A stretch of DNA of 64,000 nt from Geomonas agri (lineage in GTDB: Bacteria; Desulfobacterota; Desulfuromonadia; Geobacterales; Geobacteraceae): contig NZ_JAINZO010000001.1 of assembly GCF_020179605.1 (NCBI RefSeq), positions 1,710,799 through 1,774,798 of the forward strand, read 5' to 3'. The notes beneath the pieces are model-generated. The model worked only from the letters and a program-made list of their open reading frames with translations, searched no databases and was not told the origin of the DNA. A program made the translations under genes and the position numbers. Shown one piece after another: positions 3,261 through 59,314 of the stretch (within the stretch, counting starts at the first letter, position 1; each line of letters begins with the position of its first letter).

Positions 3261-4250
3261 TCATAAGTAGTCGGTTTTCAAAACCCATTCTCGGATCTTC
3301 TCGTCCTTTGTGAAAAGCGCTTGGTGGAAGCCATAGCCTTTCCGATAAGCTGCCGCTGTCTCTTTTTCAACCCTTGCCCTGTCGGACAGCCCCCCCCCCA
3401 CCCCCAGGGCTTTCCTGACGGCTTCCCACAAACGCGGTATCTCCCCCGGCTTAGGGGAAGATCCTGCCGCAGCAAGAACGCCGCGGCTAATCCTCAAGTC
3501 TCTGAAGGAGTCGGAGATCCCTTGGCTGTAGGCCCTTTTCTTGAAGTACGCCAGCGTCATCCGCTCTTTCGGGACTCGGTGTCGCACGCTCGCCTCGGGA
3601 TGGTAGAAGGCACGGTACCCCTTCTCGGACATGTAGTTGCTGACGTGCGTTTCACCGTCTCCCCGCAGGTGGATCAGCTCCCAAGGCATCCCGTCGGGAT
3701 GGAACCCCCCGGCTTCCTGAAGCAGAGTTCTACTCACGGCGAAATTACAGCCCCAAACGAGTGAGGCGTCGATGTCTCGCCCGAGTTCACCGAGGTCCAG
3801 GATGCTCAGTTCTCCAAGGATCCGATCCCCTTTTTGGCGGCTCCACATCCTCTCCAGCCAGCGGGGGGGAGGCGTTTCCCACAAGGGAAGGTTCTTCCCA
3901 CCGACGAGTCGAACGTCCGGCTTCGCGAATGCCTCGCATATCGCCTCGAGCCAGGTATCGAAAGGGATGATGTCGTCGTCTGCAAACACGAGCAGGTCGC
4001 ATTCCGCTGCCCTCATCCCTGCATGACGAGCGTTGTGGAGTCCGGGAACCGGCTCGTGCAGATAGCTGAACCTGAAGGGCGTGCACCCCTTAAGCGCTGC
4101 AGCTGCCCGACGGCATTCTCCATCAGAGCCGTTGTCGACCACGACGACCTGGAACCGGGTGGGGTTCAAGGTCTGGTTCTCAAGCGCAGCCAGCAGTTCC
4201 AAGAGATAAGCGGTGCGGTTATGTGTCGGTATTATTACTGCGACGTCCAT
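3261..4250 (-). CDS. Glycosyltransferase family 2
   Basis: A 329-residue GT-A fold enzyme. The N-terminal strand AVIIPTHNRTAYLLELL (about 4-20), VVVDNGSDG (36-44) and the metal-binding DxD-type motif FADDD (89-93) are the standard GT2 landmarks. A later GDGET/HVSNYM segment and an amphipathic C-terminus follow. It transfers a nucleotide-activated sugar to a growing glycan at the cytoplasmic face of the membrane; donor and linkage cannot be read from sequence. The ATG at 4250 is the natural start because family similarity begins at once. It stands alone between gaps of 70 and about 280 bases but is co-oriented with the cluster. Confidence 0.88.
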   Translation of the reverse strand: MDVAVIIPTHNRTAYLLELLAALENQTLNPTRFQVVVVDNGSDGECRRAAAALKGCTPFRFSYLHEPVPGLHNARHAGMRAAECDLLVFADDDIIPFDTWLEAICEAFAKPDVRLVGGKNLPLWETPPPRWLERMWSRQKGDRILGELSILDLGELGRDIDASLVWGCNFAVSRTLLQEAGGFHPDGMPWELIHLRGDGETHVSNYMSEKGYRAFYHPEASVRHRVPKERMTLAYFKKRAYSQGISDSFRDLRISRGVLAAAGSSPKPGEIPRLWEAVRKALGVGGGLSDRARVEKETAAAYRKGYGFHQALFTKDEKIREWVLKTDYL

Positions 4251-4320
4251 ATATAACCCCAGAAAAATGGTCGCAGGTGTATAAGCCTGAGCGGCCTCTC
4301 CGGCTGCGGACCAACAACGC

Positions 4321-5091
4321 CTACTTCGCTACAGCCCTCACGAAAATCCGCTGGCACTCCTCTTCACCGGTGCAGTGGAAAAGCACACTTTTGTACCAGC
4401 GGTACAGCGCGGAAAGAAGACCGGGGTGGTTCAGAATGAAAAACCGGTTGGACAGTGTCCATAAGAGCAGGTCGCGGAGCGGGCTCATCCTCTCGAAAGG
4501 TACCGTTTCCACCACCTCGAAGTGCGGCTCAAGGTGCCGGCAAAGCGACTCGACGCAGAAGTGCTGGAAGTGTTTCTCCTCAAGCGGCTTGTTCAGGTGC
4601 GGTACCGTAAGGTACAGGACGCCTGACCGCTTCAGCAGCCCCCTCACCGAGGCTATGAATGCCGCAACGGCGTCTTGCGGTATGTGCTCCAGCACCTCCA
4701 TCAGCACGGCCGCATCGAAGGGCTTCAGCCCATGCTCGCCGGTGATCTCCTCGCACAGGAACTCGAGGTTCGCGGCGTCTGCATTCATGGCCGCAGCGAG
4801 GGCCACGGCCCGGCTGGAGTAATCGATACCGACGACGCGGGACCCGGGAAGGGCCAGTGAAAGCTCACGGCTGAAACGACCGTCCCCGCAGCCGATATCG
4901 ACTATCCGACCCGCCCGCCCCCCCTCACCGATCTTAGCGATCAGGTACTCAATAGTGGAGCAGTAGTTGACCGCCCAGGTATCGAGGAGAAAATGCCGGA
5001 ACGTGCCGTCCCGGTACTGCCCGATGTAATGGTACGGGAACAGGTATTCCTCTTCCTGTATGCGTTGCTGAATCTTCAGGTCCGCCATCAT
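4321..5091 (-). CDS. Class I SAM-dependent methyltransferase
   Basis: A 256-residue methyltransferase with the SAM loop IVDIGCGDGR (63-72), strand-2 acidic region VVGIDYSSRAV and motif AAVLMEVLEHIP, typical of Methyltransf_11/23 proteins such as UbiG-like enzymes. Two tandem ATGs lie at 5091 and 5088, four bases after the stop of the preceding gene. It belongs to the polysaccharide cluster and probably methylates a terminal sugar, perhaps as a chain-length cap for the neighbouring ABC (Wzm/Wzt) exporter, which in several O-antigen systems recognises a methyl cap. That capping role is inference. Confidence 0.85.
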   Translation of the reverse strand: MMADLKIQQRIQEEEYLFPYHYIGQYRDGTFRHFLLDTWAVNYCSTIEYLIAKIGEGGRAGRIVDIGCGDGRFSRELSLALPGSRVVGIDYSSRAVALAAAMNADAANLEFLCEEITGEHGLKPFDAAVLMEVLEHIPQDAVAAFIASVRGLLKRSGVLYLTVPHLNKPLEEKHFQHFCVESLCRHLEPHFEVVETVPFERMSPLRDLLLWTLSNRFFILNHPGLLSALYRWYKSVLFHCTGEEECQRIFVRAVAK

Positions 5092-5095
5092 ACTG

Positions 5096-6364
5096 TCAGT
5101 TCTCCAGCCCGGGAGCCGGGGTGATATGGAACCCCCCGCATGAGAAGTGCCGAGCCAAATAGGCCAGGGATAGGGTTCTGAACCAAGTGGGAAACATGGC
5201 GCCTTGGTTCACGCCGCTCGACATTTCCTGATGACCATAGGTCATCGTTTCGCAAAGCCTGAAGACGAAACCGTCGTCCTCGACTTGGTTGCAGATTACC
5301 CACTTCAGGGCGCGGCCCAGCGCCTCGTCAATCTCCGCCCTCCTCTCGGGAAGCACCGGGGCCAGGCGGCAAAGGATGTAAATCGAATCAATATCCTCAC
5401 AGGCGCTGGAGTTGGCCGGCACACCGAAACCGCCCAGCGGGCTCTGCGTCTTGAGGACTTGGTCCACGATGGCGCCAGGATGCTCCACGCTCTGGCTGTC
5501 GTAGAAAAACAGCGGGTACAGGTGATAGGCGAATTGGACCATCCGGGAGCGCTGCACGGGATCGTCGGTCTCCCACCTACCCCACATGCCGGTCTCCGGG
5601 TTGACCCGTTCCTTAAGGTAGTGTTGCAGATAGCGAACAGCCTCCTCAGCACGGCCATCGCCCCAGGTGTCGCGCTGGTACTGCAGCAGAGAGCCGATGT
5701 TCATGATCTTGTTGTCGACGTCGTCTTCATGGGCAAAGGACGCATCCCAGTCCGACCGGTCCAGCCACGCCCTCAGCCGTTTCAGGTCACAGTAGGGCTC
5801 GAGGAAACTGAAAGGGTACCGGGGCTTAGCGCCCAGGTCCGTGTAGGCGCTGATCATGTGCAGAGCAAGATGCCGCGCCCCCCACCAGTCGGTATCGCCG
5901 TACAACCCGTTGTGCACCACGGGGTCGTAAAACAGCCCGTCCTCGGCCGACTGGAAGGAGTCGAAGTAGGCGGCCCAGCGTTTCCTGTCCACTGTGGGCT
6001 CTTCGAGCTTTGAAATCAGGGACAGGGTGAGGCAGGCGTACACCGAGGAGTAGAGTGTGGGCCGCGTGGTGCTGAGGGCGTAGAGATAGCTAAATTCACC
6101 GACCTGGTGTCGTTTCACGAACGCCACGACCCTGTCTCGGGCTGTCTGAAGTGCCCGGTCCGCTTCGGCAACTGGAAAATGAACTGCATGGACCCTGGCG
6201 GCAACTTCTTTGTCGATGCGCCTCACCGCCAGTCGACGGTCGAGCTGCGCCCGGCTGAGTCCGACGCGGTCCAGAAGGGGCAAAAGCATACCCTTGAGCA
6301 GCCGGCGCAAGGGGAGCCCCCCCCCGGCCTGACCGACGCCGCCCGAAGAGGGGGAGGACATCAT
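5096..6364 (-). CDS. Hypothetical protein, probable alpha/alpha-toroid fold
   Basis: I do not recognise a named family for this 422-residue protein. It is rich in Trp, Tyr and His, with repeated helical segments and motifs such as DGLFYDPVVHNGLYGDTDWWG and GMWGRWETDDPVQ. The spacing resembles alpha/alpha toroids (squalene-cyclase/prenyltransferase-like or glycan-active lyases and hydrolases). There is no signal peptide; the N-terminus is a basic, Leu-rich stretch. The ATG at 6364 overlaps the stop of the ABC ATPase (ATGA), so it is co-translated with the exporter. A role in modifying the polysaccharide or its lipid carrier is plausible but unproven. Confidence 0.7.
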   Translation of the reverse strand: MMSSPSSGGVGQAGGGLPLRRLLKGMLLPLLDRVGLSRAQLDRRLAVRRIDKEVAARVHAVHFPVAEADRALQTARDRVVAFVKRHQVGEFSYLYALSTTRPTLYSSVYACLTLSLISKLEEPTVDRKRWAAYFDSFQSAEDGLFYDPVVHNGLYGDTDWWGARHLALHMISAYTDLGAKPRYPFSFLEPYCDLKRLRAWLDRSDWDASFAHEDDVDNKIMNIGSLLQYQRDTWGDGRAEEAVRYLQHYLKERVNPETGMWGRWETDDPVQRSRMVQFAYHLYPLFFYDSQSVEHPGAIVDQVLKTQSPLGGFGVPANSSACEDIDSIYILCRLAPVLPERRAEIDEALGRALKWVICNQVEDDGFVFRLCETMTYGHQEMSSGVNQGAMFPTWFRTLSLAYLARHFSCGGFHITPAPGLEN

Positions 6365-7653
6365 ACGGCCGCTCCTCTCGACGCGCCCGTCTCCTCCAGG
6401 TCAGCCTGGAAGACAAGAGAGGCCACCCCGTCCTCCTTGGTCAGCAGATAGCCGGTCCCGTAAATGTCGGCCTGGCTGATCTTGAACCCCAAGCAATGCT
6501 CCACCTTGTCCTCCAAGGCTCCCTGGTGGGAACCGAGCGACACGGTGAGGGTGTAGGAGCCGGGGGTGAACTGCCGGGCTAGCAGCGAAAAAGCGACGGC
6601 ACCGCGTCCGGGGATCCTGTGCGGGGGCTGGAACGCCATGTAGGTATTTCCAGATGCCACCCGGATCCCATCCTGGGTGTGTATGATAAAACCGGCCCCA
6701 GCCAGCGCCACGTCCCCGGCATCATAGCAGATCCGGAACCTGATGGTGTCATTCTGGCTGAACTCGTTGGTCGGCAAGCCGCAGCCGTCGCAAAGCGAGA
6801 TCTGCCGCATGACCGGTCTCATTCCGGAAAGACGGTTGGGATGCCGGGAAAGATCGACTTGGCTGGAGTGCGCGTCGAGCCCCATGGCGAGGTAATTCTG
6901 CACGGCATCTGCCGTAGTCCCGAAACAAGCGATCTTACCCTTCTCGATGAAGAGCCCCTTGTTGCAGAGCTGTTGGACCAGCCCCATGTTGTGGCTGACG
7001 AACAGGATAGTCCGCCCGTCACGCCCCACAGCCTCCATCTTGCCGAGGCACTTCTTCTGGAACTGAGCGTCACCGACAGCGAGTACCTCATCCACCACTA
7101 GGATCTCCGGCTCCAGGTGGGCGGCCACTGCGAAGGCTAACCGCACGTACATTCCCGAGGAGTAACGCTTGACCGGAGTGTCAAGGAAACGTTCGATCTC
7201 GGCGAAGTCGACGATCTCGTCGAACTTGCGCTTAATCTCTGCGCTCCGCATCCCAAGAATGGCCCCGTTCAGGAAGATGTTCTCGCGACCGCTCAATTCG
7301 GGGTGGAAGCCGGTGCCGACTTCCAGAAGGCTCGCCACCCTGCCCCTGATGCGGATCGCCCCCATGGTAGGCTGCGTGATGCGGCTTAGCACCTTGAGCA
7401 GGGTCGATTTCCCAGCTCCGTTGCGGCCGATTATGCCGATGCGCTCGCCCGGCTCCACCTTGAACGAGACATCCCTGAGAGCCCAGAACTCCTCTTGGCA
7501 AGGCGCCGCACCAGGAAAATTGCCAAGGCGCCTGAACACGGAGGCAAAGCCGCCGGCAATCACGTCGCGCAGGGCTAGGTACTGCTCCCTCTGACCATGC
7601 GAGACAAGGTACTTCTTGCCTAGATTTTCCACGGTGATCACGGGAGCCGTCAT
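6361..7653 (-). CDS. wzt: ABC transporter ATPase of polysaccharide export (Wzt-like)
   Basis: A 430-residue protein with an ATPase domain and a C-terminal carbohydrate-binding type domain. Walker A is GRNGAGKST (76-84), the signature is RYSSGMYVRL near 163-172 and Walker B is ILVVDE (184-189). The first 30 residues before the ATPase core and the SSGM signature are typical of the O-antigen/teichoic acid exporter class (Wzt/TagH). Residues 270-430 form a beta-rich Wzt C-domain, which in characterised systems reads the capped end of the glycan. The frame extends upstream, but the ATG at 7653 overlaps the permease stop (ATGA) and begins the conserved N-terminus TAPVITVENLGKKY. Confidence 0.93.
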   Translation of the reverse strand: MTAPVITVENLGKKYLVSHGQREQYLALRDVIAGGFASVFRRLGNFPGAAPCQEEFWALRDVSFKVEPGERIGIIGRNGAGKSTLLKVLSRITQPTMGAIRIRGRVASLLEVGTGFHPELSGRENIFLNGAILGMRSAEIKRKFDEIVDFAEIERFLDTPVKRYSSGMYVRLAFAVAAHLEPEILVVDEVLAVGDAQFQKKCLGKMEAVGRDGRTILFVSHNMGLVQQLCNKGLFIEKGKIACFGTTADAVQNYLAMGLDAHSSQVDLSRHPNRLSGMRPVMRQISLCDGCGLPTNEFSQNDTIRFRICYDAGDVALAGAGFIIHTQDGIRVASGNTYMAFQPPHRIPGRGAVAFSLLARQFTPGSYTLTVSLGSHQGALEDKVEHCLGFKISQADIYGTGYLLTKEDGVASLVFQADLEETGASRGAAV

Positions 7654-49874: not shown

Positions 49875-51455
49875 TCAGTCCACATACCACTTGATGAAGT
49901 TATGCATGATCCCCGCGGGCGCCGGCTCGATCCCCTTGATCCTGGAGGTAACCGCCGGCAGCGCGTCGGGCACGTACAGGAAGGTGTAGGGCTGGTCCTT
50001 GGCCAGGATCTCCTGGACCTGGTAGTAGCAGTCGCGCCGCTTGGCCAGGTCGAAGGTGCCCCGCCCCTTCACGATGAGCCGGTCCAGTTCCGGGTTCAGG
50101 TAGTGGATGAAGTTCAGCTCCTTGGGCCCGGTCTTCGAGGAATGCCAGACGTCGTACAGGTCGGGGTCCTGGGAGATGGTCCACCCCAGCAGCACCGCCT
50201 CGAACTTACCCTTGTCGATGAAGTTGGTCAAAAAGGAGGCCCACTCCATCACCCGGATTTTCACGTCGATGCCCACCTTTTTCAGGCGCATTTGGATGAT
50301 CTGGGCGCATTTCAGGCGCTGATCGTTGCCCTGGTTGGTCATGATGGTGAAGCTGAGCGGCTTGCCGTCCTTCTCGAGGATCCCCCCCGCCCCCATCCGG
50401 TAGCCGGCCTCCTGCAACAGCGCCTTGGCTCGCGCCGGGTCGTAGGCGGGGTCGTTATCCACCTTGGCCTTGTAGGCCCAGGTCCCCGGCTTGTAGGGTC
50501 CGTGGGCGATCTGGCCCATGCCCAAAAGCACGCCCTGGATGATCTCTTCCTTGTTGATGGCGCAGGTGATGGCCCGGCGCACCTGGACGTCCTGGAACAT
50601 GGGCAGGCGCAGGTTGTAGCCCAGGTAGGTGTAGGCCGACGCGGGGTAGCGGTACTTGTTGAAGCGCGCCAGGAACTCCTTGCTGGTGGTCTGGCGCTGG
50701 TACTGCACCGGGGACAGCCCCATCATGTCCACCCCGCCCGCCTTCAGCTCCATGTACATGGTCGAGTTGTCCGGGATGATCCGGTAGACGTAGCGTGCCA
50801 GGTGCGGCGCCCCCTCCCAGTACTTCGGGTTCGCTTCCAGCACGAGCCTCTGCCCCGGGACCCACTCCTTGAAGATGTAGGGACCGGTGCCCACCGGGTT
50901 ACGCGAGAGGGGGCTTTTAGTGATGTCCTTGCCCTCCAATAGGTGCGCCGGCAGGATCGGCATGCCCCACGAGGCAAGCGCCGGGGCGAAGGGTTTGGCA
51001 TAGGTGACCCGGAAGGTGTAGGTGTCGGGCGCCTGGGCGCTCTGCACCTGCTTGAAATCCTCAGCATATGCGGTCGGGGTCTTGGGATCGACGGTGACGC
51101 GGTAGGTGTAGAGCACGTCGCGCGAGGTGAAGTCGTGGCCGTCGTGCCATTTCACCCCGCGCCGCAGGTGGAAGGTGATCTGCAGCCCGTCGGGGGAAAC
51201 CTCCCACGACTCGGCCAGGTCCCCTTTCAGCTTCAGGTTCTTGTCGTAGCGCACCAGCCCGTTGTACACCAGCCCGGAGATGTCGCTGGAGGAACTATCC
51301 GAGGCGAGGATCGGGATCAGGTTGGAAGGTTCACCGATGCTCCCGGTGACAAACTGCGATCCACCATGGCCCTGCGCCTTATTCCACGGCGCATCCTTCC
51401 CGCAGGCGGCCAGGAAGAGGAAGAGCAGGAGGCAGACAGCGCGGGCCAGGATCAT
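49875..51455 (-). CDS. Peptide ABC transporter substrate-binding lipoprotein (SBP family 5)
   Basis: A 526-residue periplasmic binding protein with a lipoprotein signal (lipobox LAAC, Cys near 18). Family 5 landmarks are GEPSNLIPILASDSSSSDISGLVYNGL split over the first lobe, FHLRRGVKWHDGHDFTSRDV (the SBP_bac_5 signature) and RNPVGTGPYIFKEWVPGQ. It captures peptides or a related ligand (nickel and glycan-peptides are other known ligands of the family) for the two permeases downstream. The ATG overlaps the TPR lipoprotein stop (ATGA). Confidence 0.93.
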   Translation of the reverse strand: MILARAVCLLLFLFLAACGKDAPWNKAQGHGGSQFVTGSIGEPSNLIPILASDSSSSDISGLVYNGLVRYDKNLKLKGDLAESWEVSPDGLQITFHLRRGVKWHDGHDFTSRDVLYTYRVTVDPKTPTAYAEDFKQVQSAQAPDTYTFRVTYAKPFAPALASWGMPILPAHLLEGKDITKSPLSRNPVGTGPYIFKEWVPGQRLVLEANPKYWEGAPHLARYVYRIIPDNSTMYMELKAGGVDMMGLSPVQYQRQTTSKEFLARFNKYRYPASAYTYLGYNLRLPMFQDVQVRRAITCAINKEEIIQGVLLGMGQIAHGPYKPGTWAYKAKVDNDPAYDPARAKALLQEAGYRMGAGGILEKDGKPLSFTIMTNQGNDQRLKCAQIIQMRLKKVGIDVKIRVMEWASFLTNFIDKGKFEAVLLGWTISQDPDLYDVWHSSKTGPKELNFIHYLNPELDRLIVKGRGTFDLAKRRDCYYQVQEILAKDQPYTFLYVPDALPAVTSRIKGIEPAPAGIMHNFIKWYVD

Positions 51456-53170
51456 TTTTCACCGGCTTCCTGGCGGCAGTGTTTGATCTTCTCGGCAAGT
51501 TCGGCGCCCTGCTCCGGCTCCATCTTCTGCAACTTCTTGTAGAGCGGCAGCGCCTTTTTGTAATTGTGGGCGGCGCAGTAGACGTCGGCCAGGTGCATGA
51601 GCACGGTCGCGTCGCCGCTGGAGAGCTCGGCAGCCCGCTCCAGTTGCGTGATGGCCTCGTTGTAGCGCTTGAGCTTGAAGTAGGTCCACCCCAGGCTGTC
51701 CAGGATGAAGCCGTCGTCCGGCCTCAGGCTCACCGCTTTTTTCAGGTAGGTCAGCGCTTCCTCGAGGTTCTCACCCATCTCGGCGTAGGTGTAGCCAAGG
51801 TAGTTGAGCGCCTGTGGATCGTCCGGAGTCACCTCCAGCACCTTCTTCATCATGCTGACCGAGAGTTCCTTCTGCCCCATCTTGTCGTAGAGGATGCCCA
51901 GCCGGAACAGCACGCGCGGGTCCGACTGCAGCTTCGGGTCCATGGATTTCAGCGTGTCTATGCCGCGCTGGTACTGCTCCATTGACTCGTAGAAGCCGGC
52001 CAGGTGCAGGTAGGGCTCGATGCGGGAAGGTTGCTCCCCGATCTCCTGCTGGAGCAGGGCGATCCCCTTCTCCGGCTGTCCCTTCTCCTTGTACAGGTAA
52101 GCCAGGTGCCCCAAGGCATCGAGGAAGTAGGGCGATTCGCGGGAGATCTGCTTGAACTCGGCAATCGCCTGGTCCACGTCCTCCTTCTCCTCGAACGCGG
52201 AGGCGAGGTAAAAACGGACCTGCTGCGCGCCCGGCTCGACGGCGAGTATGTCCTGGAAGGTTTTGATGGCCTCGTCGTAGCGCTCGAGTTCGAGCAGCAG
52301 CAAGCCGATCTTCCTGGAAGTCTCCAGCGACTTACCCCCCTTCTGCTGCAGCAGGGCCAGCGCCTCGTCAAGGCGCTTCTGCTGGATGAAAAGCTGCGCC
52401 AGGTGCTGGATGACGTTGGCGTTATTGGGATTGATCTCCAGGAGGTCCTTATAGCTGTCGATGGCGTCCGGGATCAGCCCCTGGGTCTCCTGGGAGATCC
52501 CCATCTCGATCAGGGCTTGTTCGAAATCGGGCTTCAGCTCGACCGCCTTCTTGTAATAGGCGAGCGCCTCCTTGGTGAGCCGCATCTGCTCGTAGGTCTT
52601 GGCCAGGTAGTAGTAGCCCAGTGCGGATTCCGGGGAAGCCTTCACCAGCGCCTTTAAGGTGTCCACCGCCTGCTCATATTCGAAGCTTTTCAGGTAGTAG
52701 ATGGCGATGTGCAGGTAGACCTCTTCCTTGGTGGGGTCCAGCTCGATCACCTTCTTGTAATGGGGGACCGCCTCCTTCTCGCGTTGCAGGCTCATCAGGA
52801 TGTTGCCGCACAACTGCTGGGCCTGCAGCGAGGCGGGATCGATGGCGATGGCAGCCTGGCACTCGGTGAGGGCATCCTCGGGGCGGTTCTGCTGCAGGTA
52901 AATCTGCGCAGCTGCGTTGTGCAGGAAGGCCGAGGCGGGATCAGCGGCGATGGCCTCGCGCAACAGGCTCAACGCCCCCTCCTGATCTCCTTCGGAGGCG
53001 CGCAGCCTGGCCATGGCGAACAGGGAGAGGTTCTTCGCTTCCCCCGGGGGAGGGGTCGGCGCAATGACGGCACCCAACTCGTTAAGCGGTGACGAGACCG
53101 AAGCTTGCTCGGTGGCGCAGGCGTTGATCAACAGGGGCAGGAAAAGGAGCGCTAGACACTTCTTGGTCAT
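51452..53170 (-). CDS. TPR-repeat lipoprotein
   Basis: A 572-residue protein with a lipoprotein signal (INAC, Cys near 18) followed by a short linker and about 14 tandem TPRs from residue 50 to 560 (for example DPASAFLHNAAAQIYLQQN, ALNYLGYTYAEMGENLEEAL and GWTYFKLKRYNEAI). The array is typical of periplasmic or outer-membrane scaffolds. It is coupled by ATGA to the peptide-binding protein gene, so the two are probably produced together. Function is unknown; a scaffold for secretion or envelope assembly is possible. Confidence 0.85.
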   Translation of the reverse strand: MTKKCLALLFLPLLINACATEQASVSSPLNELGAVIAPTPPPGEAKNLSLFAMARLRASEGDQEGALSLLREAIAADPASAFLHNAAAQIYLQQNRPEDALTECQAAIAIDPASLQAQQLCGNILMSLQREKEAVPHYKKVIELDPTKEEVYLHIAIYYLKSFEYEQAVDTLKALVKASPESALGYYYLAKTYEQMRLTKEALAYYKKAVELKPDFEQALIEMGISQETQGLIPDAIDSYKDLLEINPNNANVIQHLAQLFIQQKRLDEALALLQQKGGKSLETSRKIGLLLLELERYDEAIKTFQDILAVEPGAQQVRFYLASAFEEKEDVDQAIAEFKQISRESPYFLDALGHLAYLYKEKGQPEKGIALLQQEIGEQPSRIEPYLHLAGFYESMEQYQRGIDTLKSMDPKLQSDPRVLFRLGILYDKMGQKELSVSMMKKVLEVTPDDPQALNYLGYTYAEMGENLEEALTYLKKAVSLRPDDGFILDSLGWTYFKLKRYNEAITQLERAAELSSGDATVLMHLADVYCAAHNYKKALPLYKKLQKMEPEQGAELAEKIKHCRQEAGEK

Positions 53171-53321: not shown

Positions 53322-53349
53322 TTGCACCCTAAATGCGGTATGATACTAT
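53322..53349 (+). promoter_or_regulatory. Sigma-70 type promoter of the kinase-like gene
   Basis: TTGCAC (53322-53327), a 16-base spacer and TACTAT (53344-53349) stand about 35 bases before the chosen ATG. An in-frame ATG at 53333 lies within this element, which supports the downstream start. A CACCCCGG/CCGGGGTG inverted repeat lies about 75 bases upstream (53220-53248). Confidence 0.5.
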
Positions 53350-53383
53350 TCTCAAGTTAAATCATTGGGTTACCGACAAAACG

Positions 53384-54946
53384 ATGGATCAAAAGCTTAT
53401 AAAATCGCTACTTGAAGCACCAGCCTACCCAGAGCCGACGGCAGAGGTGCGCCTGGTCGAGACCCACGTCTCCTTCATCTTCATCACCGACCGCTTTGTA
53501 TACAAGGTAAAAAAGGCCGTCGACTACGGCTTTCTGGACTTCACTTCGCTCGACCGGCGCCGCTTTTATTGCGGCGAAGAGGTACGTCTGAACCGGCGCC
53601 TGTGCCCCGAGGTCTACCTGGGAGTGGTGGAACTGCGCGAGGCCCCGCATGGCGCGGCTTTCCACGGTTCCGGCAAGGTCATCGACTATGCCGTCAAGAT
53701 GAAGCGCCTGCCCCAGGAGCGCATGCTGGACCAGTTGCTCAAGGATGGCTCCGCCTGCGACGCCGACATGACCCGTATCGCTGCCGCCGTGGCCTCCTTC
53801 CATGCGGCAGCGGAGCGCGGCCCACACATCGCCGCCTGCGGCTCACCCGCCATAGTCGGCCAGAACTGGGAAGAGAATTTCCGCCAGAGCGCCCCCTTCG
53901 TTGGCACCACGCTGCAGGCAGGTGAACTGGCGGAAATCCGCCAATGGGTGACCGCCTTCTTGACCTCCAGCGAGGCGCTGTTCCAGGCCCGCATCGCTGA
54001 CGGCTTTATCAGGGACTGCGACGGGGACCTCCACTCCGGCAACATCTGCCTTACCGACCCGGTCTGCATCTTCGACTGCATCGAGTTCAACGAGCGCTTC
54101 CGCTACATCGACACCGCCGCCGACCTCGCCTTCCTACTCATGGATCTCGAGTACGCCGGCCGCCCGGAGCTCTCCCGCGCGCTGCTCACCGCCTACTGCG
54201 CGGCAAGCCGCGACGAGGCGATGACACCCTTGCTCGATTTTTACAAGGCGCAGCGGGCTTTCGTGCGGGGCAAGGTGACCAGCCTGCGCCTGGGCCAGCC
54301 GGGCATCAGCCCGGATGAGTCTGCCGCGGTGATGGTCGCGGCGCGGCGTTACTTCCGCCTGGCGCGCGGCTACGCGCTCAGACACCGGCTTGCGCCGACG
54401 CTCGTCCTCACCTGTGGCCTGAGCGGCAGTGGCAAGAGCAGCCTGGCCGCCGAGATCAGCCGGGAGCTGGGACTCGACCTGACCCGCTCCGATCTGGTAC
54501 GCAAGGCGCTGGCCGGCGTGCCGGCTGCAGGAGGGGAGCGCGACGCCGCTTACCGCGCCGGCATCTACACTGAGGCCATGGACCGCGCCACCTACGACGC
54601 ACTGCTGTCCGGTGCCGAGCAATCGCTGGCTGCCGGTCGCGGGGTCGTGGTGGACGCCACCTTCCAACGGCGCACCGACCGGGAGCGCTTCGCCGAGCTG
54701 GCCGCCCGTTTGGGGGTGCCGTTGTTGGTCGTTGAGACCCGCTGCCCGGAACAGGTAGCCCGTGAGCGACTGGAGCGGCGCCGCCACGATCCGACCGAGG
54801 TCTCCGATGCCCGCTGGGAGCACTACCAGCTGCAGCAGGCGGAATTCGAGCACCCGGAACCGGGGCAAAGCGTGCTTATTGACAGCACCCTCCCGGTCTG
54901 GGACGAGGCCGAGCTGGTGCTCGCCGCCATGGGGTTAACCGTATGA
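53384..54946 (+). CDS. Bifunctional aminoglycoside-phosphotransferase-like / P-loop kinase protein
   Basis: A protein of about 520 residues from the ATG at 53384. The N-terminal half is APH-like: FVYKVKKAVDYGFLDF (nucleotide-binding Lys), the catalytic loop IRDCDGDLHSGNICL and the metal site IFDCIEFNERFRYIDTAADLAFLLMDL. The C-terminal half has a Walker A loop CGLSGSGKSSLAAEI and a zeta-toxin/gluconate-kinase-like AAA_33 fold. Such fusions are widespread in bacteria without a known substrate. The start was chosen because the 17 codons before it overlap the promoter. The ATP-using halves suggest a small-molecule kinase, not necessarily resistance. Confidence 0.85.
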   Translation: MDQKLIKSLLEAPAYPEPTAEVRLVETHVSFIFITDRFVYKVKKAVDYGFLDFTSLDRRRFYCGEEVRLNRRLCPEVYLGVVELREAPHGAAFHGSGKVIDYAVKMKRLPQERMLDQLLKDGSACDADMTRIAAAVASFHAAAERGPHIAACGSPAIVGQNWEENFRQSAPFVGTTLQAGELAEIRQWVTAFLTSSEALFQARIADGFIRDCDGDLHSGNICLTDPVCIFDCIEFNERFRYIDTAADLAFLLMDLEYAGRPELSRALLTAYCAASRDEAMTPLLDFYKAQRAFVRGKVTSLRLGQPGISPDESAAVMVAARRYFRLARGYALRHRLAPTLVLTCGLSGSGKSSLAAEISRELGLDLTRSDLVRKALAGVPAAGGERDAAYRAGIYTEAMDRATYDALLSGAEQSLAAGRGVVVDATFQRRTDRERFAELAARLGVPLLVVETRCPEQVARERLERRRHDPTEVSDARWEHYQLQQAEFEHPEPGQSVLIDSTLPVWDEAELVLAAMGLTV

Positions 54947-55191
54947 AGACCACCTTGAAGCAAATGGTGCTGCACCGGCTCAAGCTGAAGGACACCTGGG
55001 TGATCGCCTTCGTGCTCGGCCTGGTTATGATGAACTACCCCTTCATCAGTATCTTCAACAAGCCGACTCTCCCCTTCGGCATCCCGCTCCTTTACCTCTA
55101 CCTGCTGACCGGCTGGGTCTTCTCCATCTTCATCGTCTACCTGTTCAGCCGGGCGGCACGAAAAGACAGCGACACCAAGGGACATACGTAA
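54943..55191 (+). CDS. Small membrane protein, candidate SLC5 small subunit (CbrX-like by position)
   Basis: An 82-residue protein with two transmembrane helices (about 19-37 and 47-70, with YLYLLTGWVFSIFIVYLFSR) and charged ends. The arrangement resembles the short partner proteins found before SSS-family transporters (DUF485/DUF4212 type) and, in position, CbrX before the sensor CbrA in Pseudomonas. Its start overlaps the kinase gene by four bases (ATGA) and its TAA shares one base with the next ATG, so the three genes are tightly coupled. The relation to DUF485/DUF4212 is a resemblance, not a proven match. Confidence 0.72.
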   Translation: MKTTLKQMVLHRLKLKDTWVIAFVLGLVMMNYPFISIFNKPTLPFGIPLLYLYLLTGWVFSIFIVYLFSRAARKDSDTKGHT

Positions 55192-58100
55192 TGCTGGATG
55201 TGAACTGGGTCTGGGGCACCGCCCTGCTCTACATAGCCTTTCTGTTTTTGGTCGCCTACTACGCCGACCAGCGCCAGAAGGCCGGCCGCAGCATCACCGC
55301 CAACGCCTGGGTCTACGCCCTCTCCATAGCCGTCTATGCCACGTCCTGGACCTTCTACGGTTCGGTGGGCAAAGCAGCAACCACCGGCATCGACTTCCTC
55401 CCGGTCTACCTTGGCCCCACCCTCACCGCCTTCAGCTGGTGGTTCCTGCTCAAGAAGATGGTCAGGATCTCCAAGGAAAACAACATCACCTCCATCGCCG
55501 ACTTCATCAGCTCCCGCTACGGCTCCTCGCAGTGGCTGGGCGGCATCATCACCGTGATCACCCTGATGGGGGTGATGCCCTACATCGCCCTGCAGTTGAA
55601 GGCGATCTCCACCTCCTTCACCATCATCACCGGCTACCACGACTTCCACGTCGGCTTCATGGAGCGGTTCTACATCCCCTCCCCTCACCCGGGGCTCTTC
55701 ACCGCGCTCTTCCTGGCAGTGTTCAGCGTCCTGTTCGGGGCGAGGCACCTCATCTCCACCGAGCGCCACGACGGCCTGGTGGCTGCGGTCGCGCTGGAAT
55801 CCGTGGTGAAGCTGGTCGCCATGCTCACCGTCGGGCTGTGCATCACCTACTTCACCTTTGACGGTATGTCCGACATCTTTCAGCGCATGCAGGCCAGGGA
55901 CCCGCAGCTGCTGGCGCGGCTCACCACACTGGACGACCGCGGCGACAACTCCTATGCCTCCATGTTCAGCATCCTCACCCTCTCCATGGGGGCCGTGATG
56001 CTCCTGCCGCGCCAGTTCCAGATAATGGTGCTGGAAAACTCCCACGAGGCGCACCTCAATACCGCCTCCTGGCGCTTCCCGGCCTATATGTTCCTGATGA
56101 ACCTGTTCGTGATGCCCATCGCCCTGGCCGGTGTGCTCCTGAGCGGCACCAACGCCGGGGCGGACTACTTCGTGCTCACCCTCCCCATGCAGCTTGGCTA
56201 CCCGTGGCTCGCTCTGGTCGCCTTCCTGGGAGGCTTTTCCGCCTCGGCCGGGATGGTCATGGTGGAATCGATCGCCGTATCGACCATGCTGTTGAACCAC
56301 GTGCTGTTGCCGGTGGTGATCAAGTTGAAGCCGCGCGCCTGGTTCCCGCTGCTGCTCATCAACCTCAAGCGGTTCGGTATCGTGCTGGTCATCCTCCTGG
56401 GCTACCTGTACCAGAGCGTGGTCGGGGAAAGTTACATGCTGGCCAACATGGGGCTCATCTCCTTCTCCGCGGCCATCCAGTTTGCGCCGGCCCTGGTCGG
56501 CGGTCTCTACTGGCCCCGCGGCAACAAGGCGGGCGCCATTGCGGGACTTCTGGCAGGTTTCGGGGTCTGGTTTTACACGTTGCTGATGCCCTCGCTGCTG
56601 AAGGCCGGCGGCTGGCAGGGCGACTTCCTGCTCAAAGGCCCCTTCGGTATTGCGCTGTTGCGCCCGCAGGAACTGTTCGGGCTGACCGGGCTCGACCCGT
56701 ACACGCACACCCTGTTCTGGAGCATGTTCATCAACATCGCCGGCTACCTATCGCTGTCCATCCTCCTGGGCCAGGGGGAGAAGGAGCGCGAGCAGGTGAA
56801 CCGCTTTGTCCGGGTCTTCACCCCTGAGAGCGCCGCGCCGCAGTGGGAGACCAAGCGCCTGTCCAAGCCGGTCACCATCGTGCAGTTCGTCAATCTGATG
56901 AGCAAGTTCATCGGCGAGCAGCAGGCCAACGCCGCCATCACCGACTACCTCGGGGACCGCGAGATCGACAGCAAGGGGGGCGTCTCAGAGTTCGAGCTCC
57001 CCAACCTGAAGCGCTTCGTGGAGAAGACGCTGGCCGGCTCCCTGGGCGGCGCCGCGGCGGGGGCTGTGGTCGAGAGTTTCCTCTCCGACATCGGCTCGCG
57101 CATGGAACCGGTCTACGACATCTTTTCCACCGTGCGCACCTCGCGCGACCAGAGCCGCGAGGCCCTCTTCGTCAGGCTGCGCGCCTCCGAGATCATGAAC
57201 CGGTCGCTGGAGCTTGACATCATCATGGGCGACCTTTTGGAGCTGTTGCTGCGCGAGTTCAAGCTTGACCTCGCCGTGATCCGCCTCCTAAACGACGAGT
57301 CGGTGCTGCAGGTGCGCTGCTACCGCGGCGTCGGCGGCGAGCGGCTCACCGCGGAGGACCGCATCCTCGAGATCGACACCCACGTCGGCGAGGCGTTCCT
57401 GGGGCGGCGCACCGAGTTCTTGAACGACACCGCCTTCATCACCAAGCCCATCGCCAAGGAGATCTTCCGCCGCGAGGGGATCAAGTCCTTCGCCCATATC
57501 CCCATCGTAAGCGAGGGGGCCCAGCCGGTCGGCATCCTCTCGGTCTTCTCCCGCTCCATCGTCGGCCTCTTCACCGAACAGTTCGTCGAGCTCCTGGAGA
57601 GCCTGGCCGGGCAGCTGGCCCAAGCCGTGCGCATCGTCGAGGAACGCGAGGCCAAGGAGCGGGAGCGGCGCCAGAAGGAGGCGGCCCTTCTGGAGAACGC
57701 CCGGGTCACCCGCGATCTCGAGCTCGCCAAGCAGATCCAGCTGTCGCTGCTTCCGGAACACCCCCCCACCCTGCCCGGGGTGCGTATCGCCAGCCGCTGC
57801 GTCCCCGCAGCCCACGTCGGCGGGGACTACTACGACTTCTTCCAGCGCGGCGACCAGGTGGTCGACCTGGTAATGGCCGACGTCTCCGGCCACAGCGTTG
57901 GCGCCGCCCTGATCATGGTGGAGACTCGCAGCGTGCTCCGGGCCCAGATCCAGGAACCGCGCTCGTCGAGCGACCTCTTGAAGCTCTTGAACGAACTGCT
58001 CCACGACGACCTGACCGTCGCCGAGCTGTTCATCACCATGTTCTGCGCCAGGTACGACAGCGCGACCCGGACCCTCAGGTACGCCAACGCAGGCCACACC

Positions 58101-58427
58101 CGGCCGCTGCTGTTCCGCGCCGGGACGCAGATGGAGCTCGATGCCGAGGGTCTCATCCTGGGCGTGGAGCGCAGCGTCGCCTTCGAAGAACAACAGGTGA
58201 CGCTGCAGGCGGGGGACCTCCTCTTCATCTACACCGACGGCATCATCGAAGCAGAGAACGGCGCCGGAGAACTGTTCGGCATCCCGAGGCTGTGCGAGCT
58301 GATCGAGACCATGCTGGACCAGGAGCCCGATGTGGTGATCGAAAGGGTGCTCTCAGAGGTCTCTTCCTACGCCTGGCCCGATCCTTTACAGGACGACATA
58401 TCCATGGTAGTCATGAAAGTTGCCTGA
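55191..58427 (+). CDS. SLC5 transporter-like sensor fused to STAC, GAF and SpoIIE/PP2C phosphatase
   Basis: A 1078-residue multidomain protein. Residues 1-540 form a 12-13 helix sodium:solute symporter (PutP/SLC5) domain, with AYYADQRQKAGRSI, YATSWTFYGSVG and FSASAGMVMVESIAVSTML. Residues about 550-640 look like a STAC domain (LMSKFIGEQQANAAI, FVEKTLAGSLGGAAAGAVVES), the linker known from SLC5-linked kinases such as CbrA. A GAF domain (about 665-820) and a coiled coil follow. The PP2C domain (about 845-1078) keeps the metal-binding GGDYYDFF, MADVSGHSVGAAL and IYTDGIIEAENG. It probably senses a solute or ion gradient and dephosphorylates the STAS protein encoded next. Confidence 0.93.
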   Translation: MLDVNWVWGTALLYIAFLFLVAYYADQRQKAGRSITANAWVYALSIAVYATSWTFYGSVGKAATTGIDFLPVYLGPTLTAFSWWFLLKKMVRISKENNITSIADFISSRYGSSQWLGGIITVITLMGVMPYIALQLKAISTSFTIITGYHDFHVGFMERFYIPSPHPGLFTALFLAVFSVLFGARHLISTERHDGLVAAVALESVVKLVAMLTVGLCITYFTFDGMSDIFQRMQARDPQLLARLTTLDDRGDNSYASMFSILTLSMGAVMLLPRQFQIMVLENSHEAHLNTASWRFPAYMFLMNLFVMPIALAGVLLSGTNAGADYFVLTLPMQLGYPWLALVAFLGGFSASAGMVMVESIAVSTMLLNHVLLPVVIKLKPRAWFPLLLINLKRFGIVLVILLGYLYQSVVGESYMLANMGLISFSAAIQFAPALVGGLYWPRGNKAGAIAGLLAGFGVWFYTLLMPSLLKAGGWQGDFLLKGPFGIALLRPQELFGLTGLDPYTHTLFWSMFINIAGYLSLSILLGQGEKEREQVNRFVRVFTPESAAPQWETKRLSKPVTIVQFVNLMSKFIGEQQANAAITDYLGDREIDSKGGVSEFELPNLKRFVEKTLAGSLGGAAAGAVVESFLSDIGSRMEPVYDIFSTVRTSRDQSREALFVRLRASEIMNRSLELDIIMGDLLELLLREFKLDLAVIRLLNDESVLQVRCYRGVGGERLTAEDRILEIDTHVGEAFLGRRTEFLNDTAFITKPIAKEIFRREGIKSFAHIPIVSEGAQPVGILSVFSRSIVGLFTEQFVELLESLAGQLAQAVRIVEEREAKERERRQKEAALLENARVTRDLELAKQIQLSLLPEHPPTLPGVRIASRCVPAAHVGGDYYDFFQRGDQVVDLVMADVSGHSVGAALIMVETRSVLRAQIQEPRSSSDLLKLLNELLHDDLTVAELFITMFCARYDSATRTLRYANAGHTRPLLFRAGTQMELDAEGLILGVERSVAFEEQQVTLQAGDLLFIYTDGIIEAENGAGELFGIPRLCELIETMLDQEPDVVIERVLSEVSSYAWPDPLQDDISMVVMKVA

Positions 58428-58461
58428 ACCGGAGGCGGCGCCACTTGCTAAATGTCGACAC

Positions 58462-58490
58462 TTATTGCACAATAAATCTGGCGGTATACC
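58462..58490 (+). promoter_or_regulatory. Palindromes in the spacer before the STAS gene
   Basis: TTATTG-CA-CAATAA (58462-58475) and GGTATACC (58483-58490) are two perfect palindromes in the 91-base spacer between the phosphatase and STAS genes. TTATTG, 17 bases, TATACC also reads as a weak promoter. Either an internal promoter or an operator could sit here; the spacing alone does not decide. Confidence 0.35.
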
Positions 58491-58518
58491 GTACGGACCT
58501 CACTACAAGGAGATGGAC

Positions 58519-58860
58519 ATGAACCTGGCAACCGAGACGAGGAACGACGTTGTAATCATATACGTCAAGGAGGAAAGGCTGGACGCGCACAACTCCACTG
58601 ATCTTAAGAGCGCGGTACAGAAGCTTTTTGAGGACGGCAAGAAGAACGTTCTGGTGGATTTAAAGGATGTACGTTTTATCGACAGTTCCGGGTTGGGCGC
58701 GCTGGTTTCCGGGTTCAAGAATGCCATCTCGCACCAGGGCAACCTGAAACTTTCCTCGCTGCAGTCCCAGGTCAAGTCGATGTTCGAGCTGACCCGCCTG
58801 CACCGGGTGTTCGAAATCTTCCCTTCCACCGTGGAGGCAGTGGAGAACTTTCAGTCCTAG
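58519..58860 (+). CDS. STAS-domain anti-sigma factor antagonist
   Basis: A 113-residue SpoIIAA/RsbV-like protein. The phosphorylation site lies in FIDSSGLGALVSG (Ser56 or Ser57), and the preceding strand NVLVDLKDVR is standard. The ATG at 58519 was chosen because AAGGAG lies six bases upstream; an ATG at 58513 touches that site. It would be phosphorylated by the HATPase protein downstream and dephosphorylated by the PP2C domain upstream, completing a partner switch. No sigma factor gene is nearby, so the output may be another regulator. Confidence 0.93.
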   Translation: MNLATETRNDVVIIYVKEERLDAHNSTDLKSAVQKLFEDGKKNVLVDLKDVRFIDSSGLGALVSGFKNAISHQGNLKLSSLQSQVKSMFELTRLHRVFEIFPSTVEAVENFQS

Positions 58861-58891
58861 CGGGTCGGGCGGCGGCAAAGCGAGGCATCAG

Positions 58892-59314
58892 ATGGGAAAC
58901 ACGATCGAGGTCGACATAAAGGTTCCCAACAAGACCAGGTACCTGAGTCTCATCGGGAAGATCGGGGAGGACATCGCCCGCGAGCTGGAACGCTACAGCG
59001 GCGACAAGGAGGTCTTGGCCTACCATCTGAACCTGGTCCTCACCGAGGCGATGGTGAACGCCATCAAGCATGCCGGCCCCAAGGAACCGGAAAAGCTGGT
59101 GCGCATCGTGATTACCCTGCACCACGACGACCTGACCATCCGGGTCTACGACGACGGCCAGGGGTTCGACATCAACACCATCCCGGCCCCCAACTTCGAA
59201 GAGTTGGAGGACCGGGGTCGGGGTATCTTCCTAATTCGAACCTTGATGGACTCGGTGGCCTACCGCAAAAACTGCAAGGAAAACATGCTGGAGATGAAGA
59301 AGAAACTCGGTTGA
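58892..59314 (+). CDS. HATPase anti-sigma-factor type serine kinase (RsbW-like)
   Basis: A 140-residue GHKL protein with N-box LVLTEAMVNAIKHAG, G1 VYDDGQGFD and the G2-type RGRGIFLIRTLMD. These match the HATPase_c_2 group of SpoIIAB/RsbW kinases. It should bind or phosphorylate the STAS partner and release another target when the STAS protein is dephosphorylated. It is the last gene of the operon and converges on lgt with no gap (59314/59315), so no clear terminator lies between them. Confidence 0.93.
   Translation: MGNTIEVDIKVPNKTRYLSLIGKIGEDIARELERYSGDKEVLAYHLNLVLTEAMVNAIKHAGPKEPEKLVRIVITLHHDDLTIRVYDDGQGFDINTIPAPNFEELEDRGRGIFLIRTLMDSVAYRKNCKENMLEMKKKLG

Follow-up and report, generated by a model that had tools for sequence, protein, structure and literature searches.

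An SLC5-STAC-GAF-PP2C fusion in a conserved gene set of Geomonas agri and a proposed transceptor-type partner switch

In Geomonas agri, a transporter-like SLC5 domain, a STAC linker, a GAF domain and a SpoIIE-type PP2C phosphatase are joined in one 1078-residue chain, which lies between the gene for a small two-helix protein and the genes for an STAS protein and an RsbW-like kinase. The chain keeps the motifs of its catalytic family, belongs to a conserved gene set, shares its head with histidine kinases, and groups with its counterparts in a single clade of fusions. We consider it likely that the locus is a transceptor-type partner-switching operon, in which a receptor of the kind found on histidine kinases would instead govern the phosphorylation state of an STAS protein. 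The features, all within a window of 64,000 nucleotides (the whole stretch of DNA that was analysed), are as follows.

53333..54946, plus strand: APH-like kinase fused to an AAA_33 P-loop kinase, 537 aa (Pfam AAA_33 1.6e-28, APH 1.7e-6)
54943..55191, plus strand: small partner of 82 aa with two hydrophobic segments (hydrophobicity, profile matches, dN/dS)
55191..58427, plus strand: SLC5-STAC-GAF-PP2C fusion, 1078 aa (Pfam, sequence and fold searches)
55191..56780, plus strand: SLC5 (LeuT-fold) domain of the fusion, about residues 1-530
55809-55811, plus strand: Na2-site lysine K207 of the SLC5 domain
56844..57176, plus strand: STAC domain, residues 552-662 (hhalign 97.8% and four modelled helices at 563-633)
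57207..57629, plus strand: GAF domain, residues 673-813 (Pfam; 2qyb relative)
57630..57854, plus strand: helical linker (alignment A1; modelled helices 796-826 and 836-853)
57855..58421, plus strand: SpoIIE/RsbU-type PP2C phosphatase domain, residues 889-1077
58519..58860, plus strand: STAS protein, RsbV/SpoIIAA-like (Pfam 7e-21; TM1442, 1sbo, E 8e-12; SpoIIAA and RsbV matches)
58681-58698, plus strand: DSSGLG motif of the STAS protein
58892..59314, plus strand: RsbW/SpoIIAB-like serine kinase, HATPase_c_2 (Pfam 2e-24; RsbW 6m36, E 3e-7)

The APH/AAA_33 gene shares 4 bases with the small-protein gene 3' of it, which in turn has one base in common with the SLC5-PP2C gene. An earlier sequence-only reading of this DNA had described the one-base coupling of an 82-residue two-helix protein to the fusion, the STAS and RsbW-like genes that follow, and the succession of SLC5, STAC, GAF and SpoIIE-type domains in the long chain; the arrangement holds as described, and the domains are confirmed by Pfam together with sequence and fold comparison. 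Chance open reading frames are ruled out by conservation over 44 loci and by purifying selection. A promoter scan returned 0 sites (1.0 expected) and a terminator scan 3 (4.1 expected). Divergent from the operon and back to back with it lies a gene for a TPR protein (Pfam; 51452-53170, minus strand), beside which an ORF at 49875-51455, also on the minus strand, resembles a peptide-binding protein. By tblastn, the TPR protein is matched at 22 of the 44 related loci and at seven of eight further loci (L192 being the one without), so this divergent pair may be co-regulated.

The head of the fusion is an SLC5 (SSS) membrane domain of the LeuT fold, its SLC5 part resembling CbrA with an E value of 8e-66. 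Identification through Pfam was dropped, since the SSF model does not match the fusion, and the CbrA structure 10ed is absent from the fold-search matches listed for it. K207 aligns with K196 of CbrA, the lysine of the Na2 site, for which a role in coupling transport to protons has been proposed (PMC13022988). It is kept in all 36 rows of alignment A1, which were chosen from the fetched fusions, and in the set used for the tree a lysine occupies this position in 21/22 fusions and 31/33 other proteins. Five of the nine positions of the CbrA histidine pocket are identical in the fusion; these positions are kept in 28 to 33 of 33 relatives whatever their output, so the pocket residues do not identify the substrate, and histidine was set aside as a candidate for which pocket identity has no diagnostic value.

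The interval between the SLC5 and GAF domains matches STAC-position segments from ten kinase ORFs and one EAL protein, a chosen set that includes one CbrA rather than every relative, with an hhalign probability of 97.8% (E 1.2e-12). BLASTP, moreover, aligns the fusion with CbrA of Amphritea japonica through STAC to residue 633 (27%, E 2e-59). The neighbours of this Amphritea gene encode DksA, GluQRS, a 58-residue protein, a sigma-54 regulator and PcnB. We take the order DksA-GluQRS-small protein-CbrA-sigma-54 regulator-PcnB to be that of the Pseudomonas cbr locus, and named the protein CbrA on this basis. The model of the STAC region contains two helix pairs, 563-587 and 603-633, and STAC has been described as two helix pairs (PMC4834066). 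Although a STAC-only profile searched against PDB sequences gave a best E value of 0.046, for a flagellar M-ring/FliG chimera, and a Foldseek search using the modelled STAC domain (mean pLDDT 71.7) a best E value of 1.0, the STAC-like linker of the sequence-only reading is upheld by the hhalign and BLASTP results. That reading had staked its case on a STAC match and on small-subunit similarity, both of which are found among SLC5-STAC relatives.

The GAF domain has a solved relative from Geobacter sulfurreducens PCA (2qyb, E 6e-67 over residues 661-838) and is, judged by eye in alignment A1, the most variable domain of the fusion. Residues A846, I849, Q850, L854 and P855 of the linker that follows are invariant in the 36 rows of the same alignment. 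In SpoIIE, the PP2C domain is reported to be activated when its switch helices rotate within a dimer (PMC5468089), and the invariant linker residues would fit a switch-helix-like coupling to the PP2C domain. Pfam finds SpoIIE in the chain, and neither HisKA nor HATPase_c; the histidine kinase output that characterises CbrA, CrbS and RpuS is thus missing, and for this reason the fusion was not filed with the SLC5/STAC histidine kinases. Elsewhere in the genome (C1:1017049-1017624; L001 1492-3504), a protein with REC-PAS-PAS-PP2C architecture, its domains assigned by eye, has a PP2C domain 52% identical to that of the operon, and no STAS match was found near its gene. Given this identity, the operon STAS protein may answer to that protein too, and a single STAS protein may receive more than one input.

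The phosphatase, STAS and kinase families are those of the RsbU/RsbV/RsbW switch. Catalytic-motif residues are conserved in 36/36 fusions, and both the DSSG motif of the STAS protein and the box residues of the GHKL serine kinase are kept in 42/42. The nearest solved relatives are RsbW and SpoIIAB for the kinase and TM1442, SpoIIAA and RsbV for the STAS protein. The RsbV/RsbW-like pair that had been recognised beside the fusion is therefore present with its motifs intact, and motifs and relatives together point to a working phosphatase-STAS-kinase triad. It had also been remarked that no sigma factor lies nearby, which agrees with our searches: sigma-region-3 and SigBFG models have no match in the 64,000-nt window, and the nearest sigma-region-3 gene is about 40 kb away. 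Genome-wide, the sigma factors outside the ECF class comprise RpoD, RpoH and a protein like RpoS, together with a fourth match, next to a MinD-like ORF, that we take for FliA. All of them stay under the SigBFG cut-off, which only one of 14 control genomes passes. The genome holds four other STAS matches, three of them lacking DSSG (C1:2121435, C4:48779 and C1:625336), the fourth being C1:903140. Around the gene for a further RsbW-like HATPase_c_2 protein (C1:1590381; L100 6208-6786), neither STAS nor SpoIIE gives a match. Clustering of the flanking genes found no sixth gene common to all loci.

The small partner shows one trait of the CbrX family, namely two hydrophobic segments in a protein encoded just upstream with an overlap. 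In 39 of 40 loci (drawn from L004-L047), the small gene and the fusion gene share either 4 bases or 1. Nine comparisons of the small gene with those of near relatives gave dN/dS values of 0.04-0.25, so selection acts on the sequence of the protein. The 82-residue protein belongs to one family with the small proteins encoded 5' of the genes for SLC5-STAC kinases and for an Azoarcus SLC5-STAC-GGDEF-EAL protein (hhalign 98.5%, for profile A9 against A10, a group containing CbrX). Profile A9, built from PP2C-side partners only, finds a homologue directly upstream of 23/32 kinase or EAL relatives at E <= 1e-3, against 0/32 in each of three control regions; the 9/32 without a match at this threshold include Amphritea CbrX, L175 offered only 42 bases upstream to the search, and L146 stands outside the 32 loci. 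Of the partner profiles, only A9 gives an independent count, since A2 includes four rows taken from the neighbours of kinases. The earlier suggestion that the small protein is comparable to its kinase-side counterparts is borne out by this shared family. Amphritea CbrX itself scores E values of 6.5 and 0.34 against the partner profiles, and an 8-row alignment has three invariant positions. Similarity to DUF3311 (Pfam) was seen in 8/33 small-partner members; the score of the window protein is under the cut-off. The small-protein profile has no match among PDB sequences; in PHROGs, no family was found for the small protein and only weak matches for the HATPase protein.

All five genes occur in this order at 35 of the 44 related loci, the other nine being cut by contig ends; three of the 44 (L038, L041 and L046) end before the PP2C domain, and the partial locus L049 is uncounted. 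Five further loci (L187-L190 and L193) show no tblastn match to the APH/AAA gene beside the other four genes, so the core consists of the small protein, SLC5-PP2C, STAS and HATPase. Counted by eye, the full-length fusion is present in at least 86/117 genomes of the order and in 12/297 of the phylum, all 12 in the class holding Geobacter. Another 46 phylum genomes match partly, the aligned ends falling at residues 354-854, mostly from 527 up. Each of 20 ORFs fetched from these genomes, all from the phylum outside the class, carries HisKA and HATPase_c, with GAF in 13/20 (one below cut-off). As to fusions in other phyla, loci L049-L082, taken from the best 80 matches of a pattern scan, show no match before residue 600.

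In a tree of 55 rows chosen from the fetched relatives (L192 and L194 excluded), the 22 fusions sit on one branch, with support of 92/95, just under the tool's starred level, and recovery in 92% of bootstrap trees; L158, L150 and L191 are long branches. The 33 other rows comprise 31 kinases by Pfam or NCBIfam, the GGDEF-EAL protein L147, and L146, where the domain scan covered the ORF next to the tree ORF. The tree and the HisKA/HATPase_c relatives with the same head bear out the sequence-only view that PP2C stands in place of a kinase output. Most simply, the fusion would have arisen once, in the class of Geobacter, when an older SLC5-STAC-GAF sensor had its histidine kinase exchanged for a PP2C module. 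L142 (5608-8856) and L192 also have the SLC5-STAC-GAF-PP2C architecture; the genome of each contains a second copy, and the stretches fetched around L142 and L192 gave no small-partner, STAS or HATPase match.

Among the closest described systems is CbrX-CbrA of Pseudomonas, an SLC5-STAC-PAS-histidine kinase that shares with the fusion the SLC5 domain, the STAC-position linker, the Na2-site lysine and an overlapping upstream gene for a small two-helix protein. The outputs differ, PAS-DHp-CA with CbrB there and GAF-PP2C with STAS and HATPase genes here, and the small protein has no detectable profile homology to CbrX. Also close are SLC5-STAC-GAF histidine kinases of the same phylum (for example L137, L168 and L172), whose heads are 38%, 44% and 45% identical in the best segment and which have the same small partner (E 5e-10 or better), whereas their output is HisKA and HATPase_c. 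The Azoarcus sp. KH32C pAZKH protein (L147) likewise has the same partner (E 6e-14) and a 45% identical SLC5-STAC head, but a c-di-GMP-type GGDEF-EAL output in place of PP2C; the small-partner gene and the fusion gene together span 3763-7159, and the latter is annotated from an internal start as an EAL protein. On a Paracoccus denitrificans plasmid (L148, 2239-6667), the small-protein and SLC5-STAC kinase genes overlap by 4 bases, and the gene before them is annotated as a nucleotidyltransferase substrate binding domain protein; the gene 5' of the small partner thus differs between lineages.

Compared with the RsbU/SpoIIE-RsbV/SpoIIAA-RsbW/SpoIIAB switch, the PP2C, STAS and kinase families and their conserved motifs are the same, but here the phosphatase carries a transporter-type receptor and the window has no sigma match. 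A SMART survey reports Actinobacteria proteins with SSS, GAF, PP2C_SIG and HATPase_c in one chain (PMC7918813). Compared by description only, these share SSS, GAF and PP2C with the fusion, but include the kinase domain in the chain and were found via Pfam SSF, which misses the fusion; the part of that description available to us mentions no STAC, partner or operon. The joining of SSS to PP2C is therefore not wholly new. Within the literature surveyed, mostly titles and abstract openings, we found no STAC-bearing SLC5-PP2C accompanied by a small partner and by STAS and kinase as separate proteins, no report combining SLC5, STAC and SpoIIE, and none on a Geobacter sulfurreducens SpoIIE and symporter. 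What is new here is this STAC-bearing SLC5-PP2C with its STAS-kinase pair and small partner; SLC5-STAC kinases were known before.

In the account that we favor, the five genes would be co-transcribed and the small protein and SLC5-STAC would form a membrane receptor complex. SLC5-STAC, GAF or both would set the activity of the PP2C domain; in a dimer, the helical linker and the switch helices of PP2C would probably mediate this control. The RsbW-like kinase would phosphorylate the neighboring STAS protein and PP2C would remove the phosphate, upon which the dephosphorylated STAS protein would bind the kinase and release a client of it elsewhere in the cell. Several observations weigh against this account: the L142 and L192 copies have no STAS or HATPase match beside them, the second PP2C of the genome may also act on the STAS protein, PDB searches with STAC alone fail both by sequence and by fold, the support of the fusion clade lies just under the starred level in a tree with three long branches, and nine of 32 relatives, CbrX included, give no partner match. 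Moreover, the SLC5 part of CbrA has been reported as non-essential for sensing (PMC9100948), and CbrA without its transmembrane part still responds to carbon supply. Sensing by CbrA has been placed in the cytoplasm (PMC6591292, PMC9100948), which weakens the step from transport to signal proposed in the sequence-only reading. The same published work lends some credit to a reading that we hold to be rather doubtful, in which the GAF domain senses a cytoplasmic ligand or state that PP2C reports, SLC5-STAC being an anchor or an independent transporter; GAF also folds alone in 2qyb. The conservation of the SLC5 head with K207 (36/36) and of the small partner across the class speaks against it, as do the apparent variability of GAF and the kinase relatives L048, L180 and L181, which have no GAF match and yet keep head and partner. 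Still less probable, and in our judgement improbable, is that the small gene serves mainly as a translational leader for the large gene rather than encoding a subunit. Such a role has been reported for cbrX, of which only the translation mattered for CbrA production in an earlier paper, where a P. putida peptide of altered sequence and the same length restored it (PMC6591292), and the 4- or 1-base overlaps would suit it. Against it stand the low dN/dS, a small-protein family common to different outputs, and the cryo-EM observation of CbrX bound to CbrA in Pseudomonas; that CbrX is dispensable for growth on histidine in the same work (PMC13022988) counts in turn against our own account.

As for the output, the HATPase protein could act as an anti-sigma factor on one of the general sigma factors of the genome (RpoS-like, FliA-like or RpoH) and be relieved by the STAS protein, a plausible proposal that we nonetheless lean slightly against. 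It draws on the RsbW and SpoIIAB relationship, on the four sigma proteins of the genome and on a Shewanella sigma-S partner switch (cited in PMC8256260); the window has no sigma match, and none in the genome passes the SigBFG cut-off, although that cut-off is passed by so few control genomes and the search was of sigma factors outside the ECF class. Much the same standing, conceivable if a little short of expected, belongs to a non-sigma effector of the STAS protein or the kinase, as in flagellar and biofilm STAS systems. The empty SigBFG result and the lack of a sixth common gene in the flanks are consistent with it, and the Pseudomonas STAS protein PA3347 acts on FlgM (PMC8256260), but no candidate effector emerged from an unsystematic annotation of the flank clusters. 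A bolder version of our preferred account, which we regard as unlikely, would make the two-helix subunit and SLC5-STAC a general bacterial receptor cassette with at least three outputs (histidine kinase, GGDEF-EAL and PP2C); in the Geobacter class, solute capture would directly set the partner switch and the order-level APH/AAA kinase would phosphorylate the imported solute, so that uptake, trapping and signalling form one operon.

How SLC5 domains communicate with their fused enzymes is still open even for CbrA (PMC13022988). The natural enzyme swap described here, in which head, linker and partner are retained, shows which receptor parts are independent of the output, and STAS dephosphorylation offers an easily assayed output for an SLC5-STAC receptor. 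It thus looks as if a known nutrient-sensor module has been coupled to another type of switch, where it may provide an input for partner switching in Geobacter-like bacteria.
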